A DNA stretch of 64,000 nt from a virus, in IMG/VR virus record IMGVR_UViG_3300047470_000272, positions 1 to 64,000 of that record; one strand, given 5' to 3'. Within the stretch, counting starts at the first letter, position 1. The number at the start of each line of letters is the position of its first letter. Shown piece after piece: positions 8,820-21,693 of the stretch. Below the pieces are notes generated by a model. It made no database searches. It was not told the origin of the DNA and saw nothing but the letters and a program-made list of their open reading frames with translations. A program made the position numbers and the translations under genes.

Positions 8820-9974
8820 ATGGATAAACAAAAAGAAACTGAACTGACGGCGCAGGGCATGGCCGACTGCATGGACATGGTTCGCCAGGAGCTGGTCGAG
8901 GCTGGCGTGGTCAAGGCTGACGTGGCGCCGATGTTCCTGGCCGAGGCGGTGCTGAGCCATGTGGCGGCGCTTGGGGCCGACTTGCGGTCGACGCTGACGG
9001 AGCTGACGACGGTGCAGCGCAAGCTGATCGACGCGAACGCCGAGATCGCGGCCCTGCTGCTGGCCCGGGACCAAACCGCTGTTCCAGTGGTGCCGGAACC
9101 GGCTGAAACCTGCATGGATGCTGGCTTCCAGTCCCTGCGGGAGGGTGGGACCAATTCCCGCGAATTCGGGGGAATTAAGCCGTCCGCCGTGACGATCCCG
9201 ACCACGCCGGAACAGGCGATCGCGTTCATCGGCAGCCAGTTCGAGGTCCGCGAGGATGCCGAGCCGCTGGACCGGACCCGCTTTCAGCTCACCGTCCACG
9301 ATCTGCTGTCGGCCTTCGACTGGTGGTTCGGTGACGCCGAAGCCGCACCGTCCGACGGCGAGCTGTACGAGGCGGCATCGCGCCGTGCCGATCCGGCAGC
9401 GCACGACGCGGCACTCGCGGAATCGCTGGCCGTGTTTGGCGCGTCGGCCGGGCTGACGTCGGAGCACAAGGCGGCGCAGCAGGCGGCGAACGCAGCTGCT
9501 ACTCAAAGGCTCGATACCGCGCCGCGCCGGCTCCGCGGCGTGATTTCCGAGGACTCGCCCTTGGTACGGGCGCATCGTGCCGCCGAGGCACAGGCAGGTC
9601 AGCGGGAATCCGTGACAGTCACGGAAAAGGGTCCGTGGTCGGTCAGCGACTGGGGCCAGGGCCGCATCGTGATCCAGTCCAACGACTTCACCCACGACGT
9701 GGCGCTGGAGATCAGCGGCGACTTCGGATCGGTGGAGCGCGAGATCGCCCACGCCGAGGAAATCGCACGCCGGCTGAACGCCTACCCGACTCTGGTCTAT
9801 ACCTGCATCGGCAAGGGCGGCGAGTACGAACTGATCGGCCAGGCCAAGGGCGCGGGCACCATGCGTGACCATGCCGATCTGGTCGTGTACCGCGACGCGC
9901 AGACCGGCCAGCTGTACTGCCGTGCCAGACCTGACTTCGTCGAGCGCATGCAGTTGGTCGGGAGTCAGCGATGA
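8820..9974 (+). CDS. Phage protein with C-terminal DUF1653-like domain
   Basis: The 384-residue product has a helical N-terminus (MDKQKETELTAQGMADCMDM), a middle part with FQLTVHDLLSAFDWWFGD, and an Ala-rich linker. The C-terminal part GGEYELIGQAKGAGTMRDHADLVVYRDAQTG followed by LYCRARPDFVERM matches the DUF1653 pattern (Y-x-hhG-x-A...VVYR...F-x-E), a small beta barrel of unknown role. This is the first gene of the plus-strand island and is opposed to the surrounding late genes. A TTGACA box lies at 8784-8789, but no good -10 follows. Its stop overlaps the next start. Confidence 0.55.
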   Translation: MDKQKETELTAQGMADCMDMVRQELVEAGVVKADVAPMFLAEAVLSHVAALGADLRSTLTELTTVQRKLIDANAEIAALLLARDQTAVPVVPEPAETCMDAGFQSLREGGTNSREFGGIKPSAVTIPTTPEQAIAFIGSQFEVREDAEPLDRTRFQLTVHDLLSAFDWWFGDAEAAPSDGELYEAASRRADPAAHDAALAESLAVFGASAGLTSEHKAAQQAANAAATQRLDTAPRRLRGVISEDSPLVRAHRAAEAQAGQRESVTVTEKGPWSVSDWGQGRIVIQSNDFTHDVALEISGDFGSVEREIAHAEEIARRLNAYPTLVYTCIGKGGEYELIGQAKGAGTMRDHADLVVYRDAQTGQLYCRARPDFVERMQLVGSQR

Positions 9975-12361: not shown

Positions 12362-12934
12362 TTAGGCGTGTCCGTCGAGATAGCGGTACATGGTCATGCG
12401 GCTGATGCCGTACTCCCTGGCCAGCGCGGCCTTGGAGATCGCGGGGTCGGCAGCGCGCAGGCGCAGCTCCTGCACCGTGGCGTCGTCGAGCGTGGGCTTC
12501 CTGCCCTTGTACACGCCCTTCCTCTTGGCGATGGCGATCCCTTCGGCCTGCCGCTCGCGGATCATGGCCCTCTCGAACTGCGCCACGGCACCGAGCAGGC
12601 CGAGCATCAGGTCGTTCATCGGGTTGGGTTCGCCCGAGAAGGTCAGGTTCTGCTTGACGAAGATGACCGTCACGCCGTCATCGGTCAGGCGGGCCACCAT
12701 CAGCAGCAGGTCGTGCAGGTTGCGGCCCAGGCGGTCCAGCGAGTGGACGTAGAGCGTGTCGCCGTCCCTCACGTAGTCGAGCATCGCCTTCAATGCCGGC
12801 CTGTTGGTCGTGCTGCCGCTGCACTTGTCCTCGAACGTCTTGTCCAGCTCGATCCCGTCAAGCTGCCTCTCCGTGTTCTGGTCGGTCGTCGATACCCGCA
12901 CATACCCGATCCGCTTCCCTGGTCCCTTGCTCAT
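12362..12934 (-). CDS. Serine recombinase of the resolvase/invertase family
   Basis: The 190-residue protein has the full small-serine-recombinase layout: KRIGYVRVSTTDQN with the catalytic Ser, TLYVHSLDRLGRN with the active-site Arg residues, VKQNLTFSG, MLGLLGAVAQFERAMIRERQ (long E helix), and a C-terminal HTH (ISKAALAREYGISRMTMYRY). Such enzymes resolve dimers or invert DNA by double-strand cleavage at paired sites. I chose ATG 12934 because GGAGGG lies just upstream; an in-frame start at 12964 exists. In a plasmid-like phage it could resolve multimers, complementing ParABS. No res or inverted-repeat ends were found. Confidence 0.9.
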   Translation of the reverse strand: MSKGPGKRIGYVRVSTTDQNTERQLDGIELDKTFEDKCSGSTTNRPALKAMLDYVRDGDTLYVHSLDRLGRNLHDLLLMVARLTDDGVTVIFVKQNLTFSGEPNPMNDLMLGLLGAVAQFERAMIRERQAEGIAIAKRKGVYKGRKPTLDDATVQELRLRAADPAISKAALAREYGISRMTMYRYLDGHA

Positions 12935-12967
12935 GGTCTGCCCTCCGTGGTGGTTGTGTACCACTTG

Positions 12968-12995
12968 AGTCTAGACCATGAACGCACAGTGTCAA
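12968..12995 (-). promoter_or_regulatory. Promoter of the resolvase gene
   Basis: On the minus strand a perfect TTGACA (-35) is followed after 16 bp by TAGACT (-10). The -10 overlaps a GTCTAGAC palindrome that could be an operator. It points into the resolvase gene. Confidence 0.6.
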
Positions 12996-13060
12996 GCTAG
13001 GCGGGACACCATCCTATTGTTACTGGTCGAGGTCAGGCCTGCGCCCCGTAACACATGGTT

Positions 13061-15394: not shown

Positions 15395-15438
15395 TCGAGC
15401 TGTCCTTTGTGCGCGAGGGAGCGCCTATTGTGTGCACC

Positions 15439-15459
15439 TATATAGCATCATGCTATATA
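15439..15459 (+). promoter_or_regulatory. Perfect palindrome in the radC/terS divergent region
   Basis: Two 10-bp arms TATATAGCAT and ATGCTATATA are separated by one base. A TATACT hexamer at 15456-15461 overlaps the right arm and could be the -10 of the rightward operon. This looks like an operator for a dimeric repressor controlling the island between 15.5 and 21.7 kb. The regulator is not known. Confidence 0.6.
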
Positions 15460-15516
15460 CTATCCATGTGGGTCTGTGCGCCCTCGTTTCCCCTTCCACT
15501 TGAACGGAGCCAACTT

Positions 15517-16011
15517 ATGAACGCCCAGGTAGTGCAGCTGAAACCAGAGCCGCGCGTTGATACACGCCGGCAGCGCGAGGATGCGACCATCCGCCGCGCC
15601 CTCTCCATCCTGTCGAACCGCATGCGCCAGCCCGGCGAGGTGCTGTCCAGCCCTGTCACGGCGCAGCACTATGTGCGCCTCTACGCGGGCGAGTTGGAAT
15701 ATGAGGTGTTCATGGTCCTGTTCCTCGACTCGCACAACCGTGTCGTGGCGCGTGAGGAAATGTTCAGGGGCACGCTGACCCAGACCAGTGTCTACCCGCG
15801 CGAAGTGGTCAAGGCGGCGCTGGCCCATAACGCGGCAGCAGTGCTGCTGGCGCATAACCACCCGTCGGGCAAGGCTCAGCCGAGCGAGGCCGACCAGATG
15901 CTGACCAACGCACTCAAGTCGGCCCTGGCCCTGATCGACGTACGGGTGCTCGACCACATCGTCGTCACCACGAAGTTCGCCTATTCCTTCGCCGAGCACG
16001 GCGACATCTGA
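15517..16011 (+). CDS. RadC-family JAMM/MPN protein
   Basis: The 164-residue protein has the RadC core: [11 protein letters not shown], then [20 protein letters not shown], and the metal motif [17 protein letters not shown]. The N-terminal helix-hairpin-helix part of chromosomal RadC is missing, as is usual for plasmid and phage copies. The JAMM motif suggests a zinc hydrolase; the cellular role of RadC proteins is not settled. GGAGC precedes ATG 15517. It is the first gene of the second accessory island, a position where plasmids often carry radC-like genes. Confidence 0.85.
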
Positions 16012-16027
16012 CCCACAGGAGACCACC

Positions 16028-17005
16028 ATGAGCACCGAAGTGCGCTTCACCGTCACCCTTGACGTGGACAAGCCCGAGCGGCTGGCCCGTCACCCGATGG
16101 CCGCAACCCTGCGCGCCGCGATCCAGAACCAGTTCAAGGCTATCGAGGCCACGGCCTGGGCCAAGTCCCTCGTAACGGTCAACAGCTTCATGGTTACGCC
16201 CGACACGACCCAGCCCGTGATCGACAACCTCGTCGATGCGCTGGGCCTGCTGGGGTTCGCCGACCCTCACGAGGAGGTCAACGGCGGCGACTGCGTGGAC
16301 GTCATCTGCGAGCATTGGGACCAGTTGGCCCCGCTGGCGTCCGTGTGGCCGCTGACCGAGGATCAGCGCGAGCTGTGCACCCGCGTGAAGATCGGCACCC
16401 GCGTGCGCTCGATCAACGGCGAGATCTCCGACACCGACGACGGCGAGAAGTCCACCGCCGAGGGCGAGATCGGCACCATCACCGCGATTGACCTGACCCA
16501 GCAGAACGGGATCTGCCTTGCGTTCGAGTTGTCGGAAGTCTCCGTGCTGCTCTCCGTCGCCGAGCTGGCCGACGAGGACAAATACGAGATCGACCCGGAC
16601 GAGCCGGTCTACACCACGCGCGAGGACGTCATCCGGGCCGTGGAAGGCCTGCTGGGGCACGAGGGGTCCTACGAGCTGGCTACCCGCGTCTACGAGTACA
16701 TGCGCGAACAGGGCATGGTCGAGCACAACGGCCAGGGCTTCGTGATCGAGCGCGACACCAACGTGTTCCAGATTGCCGCCGACCTGTCCAGGGCCGATCT
16801 GCCCGACTCCTACCCGCCCGAGCTGGCGATTGCCGACCACCACCTGACCGCCGACCAGTTGTTCACGAAGTACAGCACCAAGCGCGACAACGGCGAGCAC
16901 CCGCAGCACCTGCGCCGCGACTGGCGGCACGATGTGGCCGAGGACAACACGATCCTGGGCTACTGGCAGTGGGTCGAGCATCAGATCGAACTAGCGCGCG
17001 ACTGA
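16028..17005 (+). CDS. Hypothetical island protein, 325 aa
   Basis: An acidic protein with no recognised family. Visible parts are an N-terminal region with TVTLDVDKPERLARHP, a middle segment RSINGEISDTDDGEKSTAEGE and EIGTITAIDLTQQNGICLAF that looks like a small beta-barrel domain, and a C-terminal segment with HLRRDWRHDVAEDNTILGYWQWVEHQ. The GILGYWxWVxHQ end is typical of plasmid-borne unknown proteins. It starts at ATG 16028 after CAGGAG and is followed by the first of three structured RNA leaders. Confidence 0.6.
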   Translation: MSTEVRFTVTLDVDKPERLARHPMAATLRAAIQNQFKAIEATAWAKSLVTVNSFMVTPDTTQPVIDNLVDALGLLGFADPHEEVNGGDCVDVICEHWDQLAPLASVWPLTEDQRELCTRVKIGTRVRSINGEISDTDDGEKSTAEGEIGTITAIDLTQQNGICLAFELSEVSVLLSVAELADEDKYEIDPDEPVYTTREDVIRAVEGLLGHEGSYELATRVYEYMREQGMVEHNGQGFVIERDTNVFQIAADLSRADLPDSYPPELAIADHHLTADQLFTKYSTKRDNGEHPQHLRRDWRHDVAEDNTILGYWQWVEHQIELARD

Positions 17006-17012
17006 ACCAGTC

Positions 17013-17055
17013 TGAGCGCCTTGTACGCAGGGCGCTCAGGCGGGGGCCGTCCCCG
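17013..17055 (+). ncRNA. Two-hairpin leader, copy 1
   Basis: The first hairpin has eleven base pairs (TGAGCGCCTTG pairing with a G-rich arm ending GGCGCTCA, one G-U) closed by a UACG tetraloop. The second is CGGGG/CCCCG with a 5-nt loop. Both are followed by ACTAC and a GAGGAG ribosome site for the gene at 17074. Copies 2 and 3 lie upstream of genes at 18076 and 19307. There is no T-tract, so a role in translation, processing or protein binding is more likely than termination. Confidence 0.65.
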
Positions 17056-17073
17056 ACTACCGAGGAGAACAAC

Positions 17074-17556
17074 ATGCCTGTCTACAGCTTTATCACCACC
17101 ATCACCGCGCCGCACCTGGACGCGGCAAAGGACGCCGCCGCCGAAATGACGATCTCGCTGGACGAGGCCGTCACTGCTGGCGACCTCCACCCGGACGTAA
17201 CCGTCGAGCGCGGCGAGCTGGTCGACAGCGTCCTGTTCGGCTATCTGGACCTGTCCACCGCCCACCTGACGCCGGGCACGCGCGAGCGCCTGAACTTCTA
17301 CGGCGACGATCCGGGCCGCAGCGTTGACGGCCTGCGCCTGCGTCTGGCGAACTCTGGCTGGCCCGCCATGAGCATCGCCCCCTATGAGCACGGCTGGTTC
17401 GTGACCGTGCCCGACAAGAAGGAGCAGGACCTGTCCGGCCTGCCCGAGGATCTGGCCGCCGTCATGCACTACGCCCAGGTCGCCGGCGCGTATGTGGTGC
17501 GCTTCGACAGCGATGGCCACACTGTGGACGACCTGTCCGTCTACGAGGAGGGCTGA
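17074..17556 (+). CDS. Hypothetical island protein, 160 aa
   Basis: The product begins MPVYSFITTITAPHLDAAKD and contains NFYGDDPGRSVDGLRLRLAN and YEHGWFVTVPDKKE. It ends in a strand-rich part (AGAYVVRFDSDGHTVDDL). The compact alpha/beta pattern and the phrase 'YEHGWFV-VP' suggest a soluble single-domain protein of the kind found on broad-host plasmids; no function can be assigned. ATG 17074 is chosen for its GAGGAG site directly after the two-hairpin leader. Confidence 0.6.
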   Translation: MPVYSFITTITAPHLDAAKDAAAEMTISLDEAVTAGDLHPDVTVERGELVDSVLFGYLDLSTAHLTPGTRERLNFYGDDPGRSVDGLRLRLANSGWPAMSIAPYEHGWFVTVPDKKEQDLSGLPEDLAAVMHYAQVAGAYVVRFDSDGHTVDDLSVYEEG

Positions 17557-17559
17557 GCC

Positions 17560-18006
17560 ATGCCCAAGAAAACCTACCGCGTCGTCTACAACGGCGTCGA
17601 GTACACCCGCCAGACCGAGCGCATCTACACGCACATCGTGCTGGTGCGGCGCGACTACGAAACCGAGCTGGCTCAGAGCATCAAGACTGCCCGCGAGCGT
17701 GCCAGGGCCAGCCACGGCTATGCGGTCGAGCACGCCAACCAGCCCATCACCGCGAAAAGCTGGGCCACGGCGGACGAGCTGGCCGAGAGTGCGCGTGTCG
17801 CCGGCATGACGCCCGAGCAGTACGAGGCCGAGTGCGTCGAGAAGGCCCGCGCCTACGTCGAGAAGCGCCGCGCCGCAGGGGTGTTCGACAACCCCGGCCC
17901 GCTCACATGGTGCGGCAGGCCGGATCTGGCCGCGAAGGAGGAAGCCAGGGCGCGCAGCAGCGGGTATTGGGCCGAGGTCGTCACCGTGCCGGTGCCGCAA
18001 CCCTGA
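17560..18006 (+). CDS. Hypothetical island protein, 148 aa
   Basis: A basic protein starting MPKKTYRVVYNGVEYTRQTE, with a strand-rich N-terminus, a long helical middle (YETELAQSIKTARERARASH, ATADELAESARVAGMTPEQY) and a C-terminal WCGRPDLAAKEEARA. It is three bases downstream of the preceding gene. No family recognised. It may bind nucleic acid, given its basic N-terminal part, but this is weak inference. Confidence 0.55.
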   Translation: MPKKTYRVVYNGVEYTRQTERIYTHIVLVRRDYETELAQSIKTARERARASHGYAVEHANQPITAKSWATADELAESARVAGMTPEQYEAECVEKARAYVEKRRAAGVFDNPGPLTWCGRPDLAAKEEARARSSGYWAEVVTVPVPQP

Positions 18007-18019
18007 CCATGCCAGTCTC

Positions 18020-18059
18020 AGCGTCTCCGCAAGGGGGCGCTCAGGCGGGAATGGTCCCG
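18020..18059 (+). ncRNA. Two-hairpin leader, copy 2
   Basis: The first hairpin has nine pairs, including two G-U, closed by a GCAA tetraloop (GNRA type). The second is CGGGA/TCCCG with loop ATGG. It is followed by ACTAC and AGGAGG before ATG 18076. The stems differ from copy 1 in sequence but keep the pairing, which supports a conserved RNA structure. Confidence 0.65.
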
Positions 18060-18075
18060 ACTACAGGAGGATGCC

Positions 18076-18546
18076 ATGATAGCAACGCCATACGACACCA
18101 TCGTGCGGCTGCTCCAAGCCGCAATGAGCCGCGATGCACAGATGAACGCCAGGGAGGAGTGCCCGACCGGCGACGACTACAACGACCTGTTCGACTTGGT
18201 GCAGCAGATCGCTGGTGCGCTCACACCGCCGCCGCTGCCGATCACCGCGCCGAAGCAGGAGCCGCGTGCGCCAACCGTCTACGAGTGCCCGGACTGCGAC
18301 TGGACCGGCACGCTGGACGAGATCAACGGCATCCACCACATCCACCACATACAGGAGTACCTCGAACCGGGCGAGCTGGTCCCGGCTGGCTGCTGCCCTG
18401 AGTGCAACAGCGTGATCTGCGTCGAGGACCCGGACATTCCGCACCACACCCTGTACCACGTCGGCATCACCATGCGTGGCCGTGGCTGGACCGTGGCCGC
18501 GCCTGCCGATTGCCCTTCCCTCGACACCACCACGAAAGGAGCCTGA
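18076..18546 (+). CDS. Zinc-ribbon island protein, 156 aa
   Basis: A helical N-terminus (YDTIVRLLQAAMSRDAQMNA) and a proline linker lead to a four-Cys zinc-ribbon: VYECPDCDWTG and AGCCPECNSVICV, separated by a His-rich turn (GIHHIHHIQEY). A small structural zinc site is likely. The C-terminus contains a TMRGRGWTVAAP segment. It starts after the second RNA leader. Function unknown. Confidence 0.6.
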   Translation: MIATPYDTIVRLLQAAMSRDAQMNAREECPTGDDYNDLFDLVQQIAGALTPPPLPITAPKQEPRAPTVYECPDCDWTGTLDEINGIHHIHHIQEYLEPGELVPAGCCPECNSVICVEDPDIPHHTLYHVGITMRGRGWTVAAPADCPSLDTTTKGA

Positions 18547-18548
18547 CC

Positions 18549-18989
18549 ATGTCTGACACCACGAAACCGGCGCTGTACGCGCTCAACCCGCAGGAGCACG
18601 CGACCATCCAGGCCGCGCTGGCCTGCTACTTCGACCGGGTCGACGATGCGTTCGCCGACCAGATCTACACCGAGACCGCCACCAAGGGCGGCACCGTCAA
18701 GGCGATGGACGCCAAGCAGGTCGAGTCGCTCGCCAAGCGTCTGAACGGCCCCGGCCTGGAGTTCGTCGAGATCGTCAACCTGATCGGCGACGACCCGGAC
18801 GACCCCTACGTGCGCGGCGCGCATACGCATTACCTGCTGGACGAGGGCACGCTCGAAGTTGACCACCGCACCATCGTCTCGCGCGGCGACGATCCCGGCG
18901 CGTATGTCATGGCTTGGCTGTGGGTGTCGAACGAGCAGGCCGGGGTCGAGGACGAGGACGAGGACGAGGAAACGGAGGCACAGCAATGA
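18549..18989 (+). CDS. Hypothetical island protein with acidic tail, 146 aa
   Basis: The product begins MSDTTKPALYALNPQEHATI, then has a helical and strand mixture (GLEFVEIVNLIGDDPDDPYV, THYLLDEGTLEVDHRTI, GAYVMAWLWVSNEQ). It ends in a run of Glu/Asp (EDEDEDEETEAQQ). Such acidic tails occur in DNA-mimic or inhibitor proteins, but also in many unknown phage proteins. It overlaps the next gene by four bases. Confidence 0.55.
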   Translation: MSDTTKPALYALNPQEHATIQAALACYFDRVDDAFADQIYTETATKGGTVKAMDAKQVESLAKRLNGPGLEFVEIVNLIGDDPDDPYVRGAHTHYLLDEGTLEVDHRTIVSRGDDPGAYVMAWLWVSNEQAGVEDEDEDEETEAQQ

Positions 18990-19237
18990 ACACCGTGACC
19001 ACCCTGCCGCCCGATCCCGAGGGCCAGAACGACGACCGCGCCAACTATGCTTCTACGGCGCTGCTGGCTTTTGCCGACATGACCGGCCTGAATCAGGCCG
19101 ACATTGACGAAGGCACCGCGCTGGGCGATCTGCTCTGCAACCTGATGCACTGGTGCGACCGTCATGATGTCAGCTTCGACGACGGCCTGAGCACAGCCCG
19201 CTGGCACTACACCAGCGAGACGGGAGCCGACCGATAG
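18986..19237 (+). CDS. Hypothetical island protein, 83 aa
   Basis: An acidic 83-residue protein with the helical segment STALLAFADMTGLNQADIDE and GDLLCNLMHWCDRHDVSFDD. The latter pattern (LCNLMHWCDxxxxxFDxxLxxAxxHY) is common to small plasmid and phage proteins of unknown role. It starts inside the previous stop and is followed by the third RNA leader. Confidence 0.6.
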   Translation: MNTVTTLPPDPEGQNDDRANYASTALLAFADMTGLNQADIDEGTALGDLLCNLMHWCDRHDVSFDDGLSTARWHYTSETGADR

Positions 19238-19245
19238 CGCCAGTG

Positions 19246-19288
19246 CCAGCGCCTGCCGCGTGCGGGCGCTGGTGCGGGAATTGTCCCG
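19246..19288 (+). ncRNA. Two-hairpin leader, copy 3
   Basis: Eleven base pairs join CCAGCGCCTGC with GCGGGCGCTGG around a 5-nt loop; a second hairpin CGGGA/TCCCG has loop ATTG. GGCAAC replaces the GACTAC of copies 1 and 2, then AAGGAG precedes ATG 19307. Its spacing to the start codon matches copy 1 (18 nt). Confidence 0.65.
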
Positions 19289-19306
19289 GCAACCAAGGAG
19301 AGAGCA

Positions 19307-19732
19307 ATGGACCTGCACCAGACCGCGATCACGGCGGCATTCGTGATGGATGGGCTGCACCAAGCCGACCTGAAAGAGGTCATGTCCCACTACATCGGCG
19401 ACGGTGGCCTGCTCGAAGTGGTCGACGACGTCATGTACTGGGTCCCGGCGATAACGGCGCTGCGTGCCGCTGCCGACCAGATGCGCCCCGACTATCCTGG
19501 CGTGTTCGAGTACGAGGTGTCCAGCGAGTTCGGCAAGTGGCTGGGCGGGAACATCATCGACGAGGGCGATCTGCCCGACCGTGGGCACGCGATGACCATC
19601 CTGATCGACTTGGTGGAGTCGTTCTATCGCCTGAACGGGCCGGAGCACCGCGACCAGCGCCGCCGCCTGCGTGCCAACCTGGACGCCGCCGCCGACCTCC
19701 TCATGGCACCTGCCGCCAGCCAGGGGACCTGA
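19307..19732 (+). CDS. Hypothetical island protein, 141 aa
   Basis: The protein is largely helical: HQTAITAAFVMDGLHQADLK, VVDDVMYWVPAITALRAAAD, and a C-terminal LRANLDAAADLLMAP. The middle FEYEVSSEFGKWLGGNIIDE is strand-like. No family recognised. It is the third gene of the island preceded by the two-hairpin leader. Confidence 0.55.
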   Translation: MDLHQTAITAAFVMDGLHQADLKEVMSHYIGDGGLLEVVDDVMYWVPAITALRAAADQMRPDYPGVFEYEVSSEFGKWLGGNIIDEGDLPDRGHAMTILIDLVESFYRLNGPEHRDQRRRLRANLDAAADLLMAPAASQGT

Positions 19733-19746
19733 CCCATGAGCCGCTC

Positions 19747-19793
19747 TGACGAAGTTCGTCACCCGGTGACGAAGTCTGACGAGCGGCTCGTCA
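19747..19793 (+). repeat. Two nested TGACGA palindromes
   Basis: TGACGAAGTTCGTCA (15 bp) and TGACGAGCGGCTCGTCA (17 bp) are each perfect inverted repeats about one base, with starts 30 bp apart (three helical turns). They lie between two genes of the island, just before ATG 19810. Operator sites for a dimeric regulator are the simplest reading. The same stretch could encode a 20-residue peptide, which I do not claim. Confidence 0.55.
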
Positions 19794-19809
19794 AATGAAA
19801 GGAGTGGAA

Positions 19810-20148
19810 ATGAAACGACCGAGAAACTACAGCCCGACCAGCATCAGCCCGCACGCGGTGGGTTCGACCCGCATCTGCCATGCCTGCGAAGCCAGCCTGC
19901 CCCACGCGCAGATGACCGAGATCCACCCGGTGCCGGGCCTGACCATGTACCGCTGCCCGGCGTGCGTCGAGCTGCTTGCGCGCGTGCTGGCCTACGCCAA
20001 GTCGCGCTGGTGCTGGGACGACGCCGCCATGCTCGGCGAACTGTTCGAGCGCGACTGGGTGCGCGGCGAGACCGTCGAGGGCTTCGTTGACGCCTGGGCG
20101 CGCGACTACGACCTGACCGACCCGCGCGACGTGGGGATGAACCCATGA
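19810..20148 (+). CDS. Putative zinc-binding island protein, 112 aa
   Basis: Two CxxC pairs frame a small domain: STRICHACEASLPHAQ and MYRCPACVELLARV, then AKSRWCWDDAAMLGELFERD. A structural zinc site is likely. ATG 19810 is chosen because GGAG lies seven bases upstream; an in-frame ATG at 19795 is less well placed. The nested palindromes lie directly upstream, so it may be separately regulated. Confidence 0.6.
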   Translation: MKRPRNYSPTSISPHAVGSTRICHACEASLPHAQMTEIHPVPGLTMYRCPACVELLARVLAYAKSRWCWDDAAMLGELFERDWVRGETVEGFVDAWARDYDLTDPRDVGMNP

Positions 20149-20333
20149 GCGGGCGTCCGTCCGCAGAAGTCGTCAAGGCCGTGGCCTTGATGCGCGAGAG
20201 TGGCGGCAAGGTGACGGCCTACGCCGCCGCCAGGGCCGTCGGCATCGCCCTGTCCACCATCTACCGCTCGCCGCTGTACAAGGCGTACAAAGCCGAGCAG
20301 GAAACCACCCCAACCCGCAAGGAGGAACCATGA
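20145..20333 (+). CDS. Small helix-turn-helix protein, 62 aa
   Basis: The protein reads GRPSAEVVKAVALMRESGGK, then TAYAAARAVGIALSTIYRS, which fits a resolvase/terminase-small-subunit type HTH (two short helices, a glycine turn, and a recognition helix). The tail is charged. A DNA-binding role is likely; the target may be the palindromes 350 bp upstream, but this is untested inference. ATGA overlaps link it to both neighbours. Confidence 0.6.
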   Translation: MSGRPSAEVVKAVALMRESGGKVTAYAAARAVGIALSTIYRSPLYKAYKAEQETTPTRKEEP

Positions 20334-20788
20334 AAAAGAAGGACTTCAAGATCTACGAGGCCGGCATGGACGACATGATCGCCAAGCATGGCTGGGCCGT
20401 GCAGGGCGTGTTCGGCAGCCCGACCTCACCCTCGTTTTCCTACAGCGTCGGGCTGGCCGCGAAAGGCCTGCCCGAGGTGATCGTGTTCGGCCTGCCGCCG
20501 CAGGTTGCGGCCCAGTTCCTGAACGAGCTGGGCCGCCGCTTCACGACCGAGGGCGTACCCCCGCTCGACGTGGATCTGCTCGACGTGGCTCAGGGCTACC
20601 CGGCGCGCCTGGTGCCGGTCCCGCGTGTCGCCGCCGACCAGTACCTGTTCGCCGCAAAGCACCGCTACCCCGCTTACACGGCGGTCCAGCTGGTCTGGAC
20701 CGACGAGAACAGCCGCTATCCCTGGGATAACGGTTTCGACCCGGCGCTGGTGTCTCGCCAGCCCATCCTGCGCAGCACCCTCAACTGA
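20330..20788 (+). CDS. DUF4262-family protein
   Basis: The product has the DUF4262 hallmarks: KHGWAVQGVFGSPTSPSFSY, SVGLAAKGLPEVIVFGLPPQ, and a later HRYPAYTAVQLVWTDE followed by YPWDNGFD. The family is about 150 residues, matching this protein, and is widespread on plasmids and in actinobacterial and proteobacterial genomes. Its biochemical role is unknown. It is coupled to the small HTH gene by ATGA. Confidence 0.75.
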   Translation: MKKKDFKIYEAGMDDMIAKHGWAVQGVFGSPTSPSFSYSVGLAAKGLPEVIVFGLPPQVAAQFLNELGRRFTTEGVPPLDVDLLDVAQGYPARLVPVPRVAADQYLFAAKHRYPAYTAVQLVWTDENSRYPWDNGFDPALVSRQPILRSTLN

Positions 20789-20800
20789 AAGGAGCAAGCC

Positions 20801-21151
20801 ATGAACGACTCGATCACGCGGCTCGACTACTTCGCCGCCCATGCGCCGACGGCGATTCCCGACTGGTTCAAGCCCGAAGAACCGGAGTACAACGGCCCGG
20901 CCTACCCCACCCTTCCCGCCGGCATCCCGGAGGAGGACCGCAAGATGATCGCAAGCTGGGAGAGGGACCCCTGCTTCGACCTCGAAGGCGAATACGCATG
21001 GTTTCAGAACGACGTCGAAGCCTACCGGGCGGCGATGAAGGATCACAAGGAGCGGATCGCGGTGGAGCGGTATCTGCGGTGGCCGTGGGCCTACGCGAAA
21101 AGCATGCTGCTCTGGTGCGACGTCTACACCGTCCAGAAGGAGCCGTCATGA
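20801..21151 (+). CDS. Hypothetical island protein, 116 aa
   Basis: The product is acidic and aromatic, with ITRLDYFAAHAPTAIPDWFK at the start, a REDP-like linker and a C-terminal helix pair (AWFQNDVEAYRAAMKDHKER, YLRWPWAYAKSMLLWCDV). The opening resembles phage and plasmid proteins that begin with 'RLDYFAAHAP-IP-WF', often near SSB or recombination genes. Function unknown. Confidence 0.6.
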   Translation: MNDSITRLDYFAAHAPTAIPDWFKPEEPEYNGPAYPTLPAGIPEEDRKMIASWERDPCFDLEGEYAWFQNDVEAYRAAMKDHKERIAVERYLRWPWAYAKSMLLWCDVYTVQKEPS

Positions 21152-21363
21152 GCCACGATCCCGTCACCATCACCGCCACAATGGACGATGACTGTGCGTG
21201 GGAGCTGGCGCAGTTCTGCAAGCGCTCGACGTTCCATGACTTCTTCGACAAGACCGAAGCGCACCTGCCGCACGACCAGCGCACCGCACTGGCCTACCGC
21301 ATGATTCGCGGGATCGAGGCCGTGCAGGGTGCGCTGGCCAAGCAGGGCTATTCACCACGCTAA
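21148..21363 (+). CDS. Small conserved phage/plasmid protein, 71 aa
   Basis: The sequence contains CAWELAQFCKRSTFHDFFDK and ends ALAKQGYSPR. Proteins with an 'ELAQFCKRxxFxD' helix and a 'A-QGYxPR' end are common small phage products with no known activity. It starts in the stop of the preceding gene. Confidence 0.6.
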   Translation: MSHDPVTITATMDDDCAWELAQFCKRSTFHDFFDKTEAHLPHDQRTALAYRMIRGIEAVQGALAKQGYSPR

Positions 21364-21375
21364 CAGGAGAACAAC

Positions 21376-21693
21376 ATGACTTCAATTCTGACCATCAAGG
21401 GTTCGACCAGCACGCAGCAGATCGAGGACGCCATCCCCTACACCGACATGCGCCAGCACGCCATTGAGCGCCGCGACGACGCCGCCGCCGTGATCGCCGA
21501 GCAGGGCGACGAGGCCGTGCTGGAACTGCACCAGATCGACGGGCTGGACGTGCTGTACTCGCCGACCTTCGGCTACGCCTACGTCAACCAGAAGGGCAGC
21601 GGCACCGGCGACAGCATGGTGATCGACAACGGTGAAGCCGAATCAGCCGAGCATGCGGTCCAAATCTGGCGCGACCAGAACGGCCCCGCCTGA
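21376..21693 (+). CDS. Hypothetical protein, 105 aa, last gene of the second island
   Basis: The product starts MTSILTIKGSTSTQQIEDAI and contains RRDDAAAVIAEQGDEAVLEL and LYSPTFGYAYVNQ. It appears alpha/beta and soluble. A strong terminator begins 20 bases after the stop, showing that it ends the plus-strand operon. Function unknown. Confidence 0.55.
   Translation: MTSILTIKGSTSTQQIEDAIPYTDMRQHAIERRDDAAAVIAEQGDEAVLELHQIDGLDVLYSPTFGYAYVNQKGSGTGDSMVIDNGEAESAEHAVQIWRDQNGPA

Follow-up and report, generated by a model that had tools for sequence, protein, structure and literature searches.

Three junctions between consecutive genes of a virus genome carry copies of an RNA element whose base pairing, judged from compensatory changes among related sequences, is kept by evolution. 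They lie within the window, i.e. the analysed stretch of 64,000 nucleotides, which belongs to an 82,127-base virus record (IMGVR_UViG_3300047470_000272), and are located on the + strand at 17001–17061, 18006–18065 and 19234–19294, each followed by a gene. At the level of aligned sequences, strand-specific conserved pairing and a constant placement between the stop codon of one gene and the start codon of the following one are established. The element probably governs the timing of translation of the following gene. The favoured overall reading, held with slightly less than even confidence, is that the three sites represent one conserved, strand-specific RNA element acting in cis at the junctions of polycistronic phage mRNA and setting translation of the next gene.

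The element is about 55 bases long. Copy A (17001–17055, +; 53.9 bits with covariance model R1; 48.7 bits, E = 1.5e-10 with model R2; part of alignments A3 and A6) starts with the 5′ strand of a basal helix P1 (ACUG, 17001–17004), which overlaps the upstream stop codon TGA (17003–17005), followed by CCAG (17007–17010), the long hairpin P3 (17011–17040, loop UACG) and the short hairpin CGGGGGCCGUCCCCG (17041–17055); the 3′ strand of P1 (CCGU, 17047–17050) is located within the latter and three of the four P1 pairs form. Copy B (18006–18059, +; R2 61.9 bits, E = 6.8e-14) comprises P1 strands ACCA (18006–18009) and UGGU (18052–18055), both changed in compensation relative to ACAG/UUGU, the upstream stop TGA (18004–18006), CCAG (18012–18015), P3 (18016–18045, loop GCAA) and the short hairpin CGGGAAUGGUCCCG (18046–18059). 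Copy C (19234–19288, +; R2 66.9 bits, E = 3.6e-15) pairs AUAG (19234–19237, overlapping the stop TAG at 19235–19237) with UUGU (19281–19284) and contains CCAG (19240–19243), P3 (19244–19274) and the short hairpin CGGGAAUUGUCCCG (19275–19288). Next to the short hairpins are GACTAC (copies A and B) or GGCAAC (copy C), Shine-Dalgarno sequences read as GAGGAG (17062–17067, +), AGGAGG (18065–18070, +) and AAGGAG (19295–19300, +), and the ATG start codons at 17074, 18076 and 19307, 18, 16 and 18 nt downstream of the respective short hairpin. The original prediction, which had described three copies with a long hairpin, a short hairpin and a strong ribosome site, GACTAC in two of them, UACG and GCAA tetraloops and near-equal distances to the start codon, is borne out in all of these points. 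It had, however, drawn the element as starting about 10 nt too far downstream, since the element begins at the upstream stop codon.

Folding of copies A, B and C was stronger than that of shuffled sequences (z-scores of −3.4, −1.9 and −2.1, respectively). The short hairpin alone occurs in the window at chance level (18 one-mismatch matches versus 18.4 expected), and the reality of the element was therefore judged from relatives. Model R2 retrieved exactly these three copies from the window (next match, E = 0.33), and R1 detected only the same three in the 82 kb record.

Relatives were collected by pattern scans of IMG/VR viral contigs, each scan freeing different parts of the element, and by protein search. 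About 100 further copies were recovered, distributed over three groups of uncultured phages as defined by common neighbouring genes: one resembling the window, a second one, and a third of lower GC content with a primase resembling that of Salicola and Alteromonas phages. Full contigs carry one to five copies each, compared to three in the record of the window. An architecture scan independent of sequence, covering 9285 start sites, yielded 84 matches as opposed to none in shuffles, and it also picked up copies of a variant type described below. The element was found in IMG/VR viral contigs only, and not in the named phage and plasmid records tested: a DNA search of such records did not find the element, nor did covariance model searches of related named records, among which one run without a positive record is weak. 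Searching 754 bacterial genomes with the model (about 15 candidates scored per genome) revealed five weak matches; three of these (L258, L259 and L262) were dismissed as chance because no start site follows them, and a pattern scan of genomes produced only chance matches among the matches listed. Bacterial stretches containing the hairpin letters by chance did not exceed 31 bits with R2 and mostly stayed below 24, whereas nearly all element copies scored 45–76 bits and a few divergent ones 38–42 bits, values which partly arise by construction, since most of these copies had served to build R2. No Rfam 15 family matched in the window at the gathering threshold, none matched at E ≤ 5 across 15400–21500, and none matched at the elements of relatives; literature searches returned analogues, but not this element. 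One relative (L021) harbours a match to the int-alpA RNA family (RF02996, 38.8 bits) at 8979–9053 (−). Overall, the data support an undescribed RNA structure in cis to the three genes, as had been proposed; it shows covariation and has no Rfam match.

RNAalifold applied to 62 aligned copies added the outer helix P1, which had not been drawn originally; it encloses P3 and covaries (ACAG/UUGU and variants, including ACCA/UGGU, ACUA/UAGU, ACGG/UCGU, AAUG/UAUU, AGUA/UAUU, AAAG/UUUU and others). Each of the 11 P3 pairs shows changes of both partners in the 62-copy alignment and likewise in an enlarged alignment of 90 copies. In the latter, 95.6 % of the cells pair, as compared to 34–40 % for slid structures, with shares of 98.1 % for P1, 93.8 % for P3 and 98.9 % for CCAG/CGGG. 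In the first scans the partner of P1 within the loop was entered as N, and three scans exerted no selection on the 5′ strand of P1; P1 pairing is no effect of selection in those scans, because the P1 strands were unconstrained there. Significance was assessed with a custom tree-aware null, in which substitutions were replaced along the tree in 60 replicates, a procedure similar to R-scape but not R-scape itself. Among all columns of the 90-copy alignment, the 11 best column pairs fall in P1 or P3, and seven pairs reached E ≤ 0.05, six of P3 and one of P1 (pair 3–51). The assertion that sequence differs while pairing is kept, and the covariation in homologues called for in its support, are thereby corroborated, the latter with this R-scape-like script. 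The frequent G-U pairs, together with far lower scores of the reverse strand, point to RNA of the coding strand. Sequence and loop of P3 vary freely and the conserved letters are located at the base of the element. Immediately 5′ of P1, 86 of the 90 copies have a G, for which the first C of CCCG is a possible partner.

The CGGG motif has two possible partners: the upstream CCAG, resulting in one long hairpin (nested fold) that contains an internal loop and stacks about 18 pairs, or the downstream CCCG, resulting in the short hairpin. The original model of two hairpins holds for P3; it lacked P1, and the structure goes beyond two independent hairpins, because P1 covaries and CGGG competes between CCCG and CCAG. 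CCAG and CGGG are invariant in canonical copies, and CGGG/CCCG accordingly displays no compensatory change there. The outer pair of CGGG/CCCG is broken in about 10 copies, in part because A-type copies possess CCCCG and shift the register. Nearly all copies contained CCCG even when the search pattern did not require it; exceptions are L341 (no CCCG), L301 (CCCA) and L279 (changed CGGG). Six variant copies of the same architecture, with other P1 pairs, have CGGG/CCCG replaced by GGCC/GGCC or GGCU/GGCC (start codons at L203 8430(−), L217 5583(−), L288 2445(+), L317 529(−), L338 1877(+) and L366 15703(+)), and UAA overlaps a P1 strand in all six. The short hairpin is therefore supported across types. 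This variant type has an A/U-rich P1 and belongs to the third phage group. CCAG/CGGG covaries only in a small canonical subfamily and is not significant under the tree-aware null. Copies with this pairing replaced, e.g. by UCAC or GCAC with GGGA, were observed at L323 2254–2309(−), L305 6588–6643(+), L346 472–527(−), L203 9042–9096(−) and L326 7628–7684(−); pair G10–C43 is changed to C-G in four aligned copies. The two folds are mutually exclusive at CGGG, with a mean predicted energy difference of 0.8 kcal/mol and predicted energies within 2 kcal/mol of each other in 56 of 89 copies. Such near-equal energies, along with the invariance of the motif, suggest that CGGG may switch between its CCAG and CCCG partners. 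The view that P1 and the short hairpin constitute a proven pseudoknot was rejected, as P1 is nested around P3 and fits either fold.

In all 89 copies with an assessable position, the element is located between genes, directly after a co-directional open reading frame whose stop codon overlaps or adjoins it; it is therefore intercistronic and not the RNA leader originally envisaged. Relative to the first base of P1, the stop codon starts at −8 to +2, most often at −2 (60 copies) and in 10 copies at +2. Stop codons at −2 are UGA and never UAA, which the conserved G 5′ of P1 would explain. The distance from CCCG to the start codon is 16–22 nt in 82 of 90 copies. No promoter-like site, and on the + strand no terminator-like site, coincides with the copies in the window; Rho-independent terminators (GC-rich hairpin plus T run) were accordingly rejected as an identity of the copies. 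The adjoining stop codons could simply reflect genome compaction.

Copy A is preceded by a gene without Pfam match (16028–17005, +), whose stop codon is located inside P1, and followed by a DUF5983 gene (17074–17556, +; PF19419, E = 1.6e-20). A further open reading frame (17560–18006, +) occupies the space between copies A and B. Copy B precedes a gene of unassigned function with Cys pairs resembling zinc ribbons (18076–18546, +), and copy C another one of unassigned function (19307–19732, +), relatives of which keep the element in other viral contigs. Three genes of unknown function had been announced, a description which applies to the latter two and not to the DUF5983 gene. While in both the window and L003 an A-type copy precedes the DUF5983 gene, it directly precedes a homologue of the 17560–18006 gene in L005, L036 and L047, the DUF5983 gene of the window segment 17074–18006 being present or absent behind the A-type element as if swapped. 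Downstream proteins include ArdC N-terminal domain proteins (4 of 58 scanned), GP88, DUF5983, Lar-like, RusA-like and clamp-like proteins as well as small zinc ribbons, and most are without known function. A Massilia plasmid encodes a homologue of the copy C gene and lacks the element; in this plasmid (L263, Massilia sp. WG5; 8968–9381 and 12496–13002) the homologue is found near a JAB-domain (RadC-like) gene, recalling the gene order of the window. At 12362–12964 (−), the window contains an open reading frame which by sequence looks like a serine resolvase/invertase and adjoins terminase genes.

The geometry of stop codon, element and start codon fits an intercistronic structure for putative translational coupling. 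Judging by known ribosome footprints, a ribosome positioned at the stop codon would reach the ACAG..CCAG strand. When CGGG pairs with CCAG, the nested long hairpin would form; when it pairs with CCCG, the short hairpin would, and the P1 strands would then engage in a pseudoknot. The ribosome that completes translation of the upstream gene, possibly together with a further factor, may determine the balance between these folds: at the upstream stop codon this ribosome would cover the ACAG..CCAG strand, thereby freeing CGGG for CCCG, and the altered fold, which borders on the ribosome site of the next gene, would then change initiation. As the Shine-Dalgarno sequence is unpaired in both folds, any effect on initiation must be indirect. 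Translational coupling through RNA unfolding is known (PMC12548453). The more specific proposition of a dedicated RNA switch sensing translation termination, in which the terminating ribosome moves CGGG from CCAG to CCCG and thus sets the next initiation, and which phage genomes would employ repeatedly ahead of genes for anti-restriction and replication, is distinctly doubtful.

The main contender, though unlikely, is that a trans-acting protein or small molecule binds the site as a translational operator or riboswitch, with P3 serving as scaffold, the base (ACAG..CCAG / CGGGAAUUGUCCCG) as recognition site, and the ribosome sites of several genes blocked together. The clustering of conserved letters at the base, below a freely varying P3, would agree with binding, as would the regulon-like occurrence of one to five copies per contig before unrelated genes and the precedent of T4 gp32, a phage protein whose target is a pseudoknot in a leader (PMC3014915). 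On the other hand, the variant copies alter the conserved letters and keep the architecture, and linked blastp comparisons between the three phage groups, reading incomplete contigs, identified no common candidate for an RNA-binding-like or other trans-acting protein. With respect to riboswitches, the element is not a 5′ leader and never heads an operon, unlike most riboswitches, and the downstream genes are unrelated. Improbable, too, is a signal for mRNA processing or stability, i.e. RNase III-like cleavage or protection from 3′ exonucleases. Processing sites of T7 and REP hairpins provide the comparison for such intercistronic hairpins, and the stacked pairs of the nested fold directly after stop codons would suit this function; it demands structure, however, and neither an invariant CCAG/CGGG..CCC nor a fixed distance to the next start codon.

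The latter distance, kept relative to the Shine-Dalgarno sequence, also argues against a put-like antiterminator, whose nascent RNA would bind RNA polymerase and permit readthrough of terminators in the phage operon. HK022 putRNA of about 70 nt with two stem-loops requires no phage protein (PMC9378689), in agreement with the lack of a common phage factor across the groups seen here; compared by description, put sites are nevertheless located downstream of early promoters and the present element between genes, which renders this explanation highly improbable. Very improbable is a function at the DNA level (cassette boundary, recombination site or binding site of a DNA-binding protein) with the hairpins as by-products: the genes behind A-type copies do differ between related phages, as though exchanged, but the arms diverge freely with pairing kept, many G-U pairs occur on one strand only, and the position of the element relative to stop and start codons is retained. 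Hairpins without function arise easily in GC-rich DNA, and within the window the short hairpin on its own occurs about as often as expected at random. This explanation has a negligible probability, being contradicted by the covariation, by the outcome of the architecture scan and by the model scores.

To our knowledge, conserved mRNA structures have rarely been described in phages other than the model ones; with the element, phage biology gains an RNA family which is widespread and supported by covariation. The stop codon inside a helix and the adjoining ribosome site offer a direct test of reusable phage RNA switches tuning neighbouring genes, anti-restriction genes included, and the alignment and models can be used for screening other genomes.

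The nearest analogues are SAS/ESAS, put RNA and the gene 32 pseudoknot, each of which differs in a defining feature. The start-associated sequences (SAS/ESAS) of cluster K mycobacteriophages are likewise multi-copy and located right before start codons across gene families, some with an upstream inverted repeat (PMC3203893). According to their authors, ESAS repeats do not support RNA pairing and a site for a DNA-binding protein was proposed (PMC3203893), in contrast to the strongly supported RNA pairing of the present element; the SAS 13-mer GGGATAGGAGCCC had no match in the window with up to two mismatches. HK022 putL and putR are likewise phage RNAs of similar length; they are described as two stem-loops and require no phage protein (PMC9378689), and one of the two possible folds of the element has two hairpins. 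The comparison is by description. The put RNAs are promoter-linked and act on RNA polymerase, whereas the present element occupies intercistronic positions and keeps its place relative to stop and start codons. The T4 gene 32 mRNA also possesses a pseudoknot 5′ of the ribosome site for translation control (PMC3014915), but in a single gene bound by its own product, whereas the present element is multi-copy, lies ahead of unrelated genes and has a stop codon at its start. Genes VII–IX of f1 and rpmI–rplT resemble it in carrying an intercistronic structure whose state a ribosome on the preceding cistron could affect (PMC12548453); those are individual cases, whereas here one RNA family recurs, with the stop codon in its basal helix.
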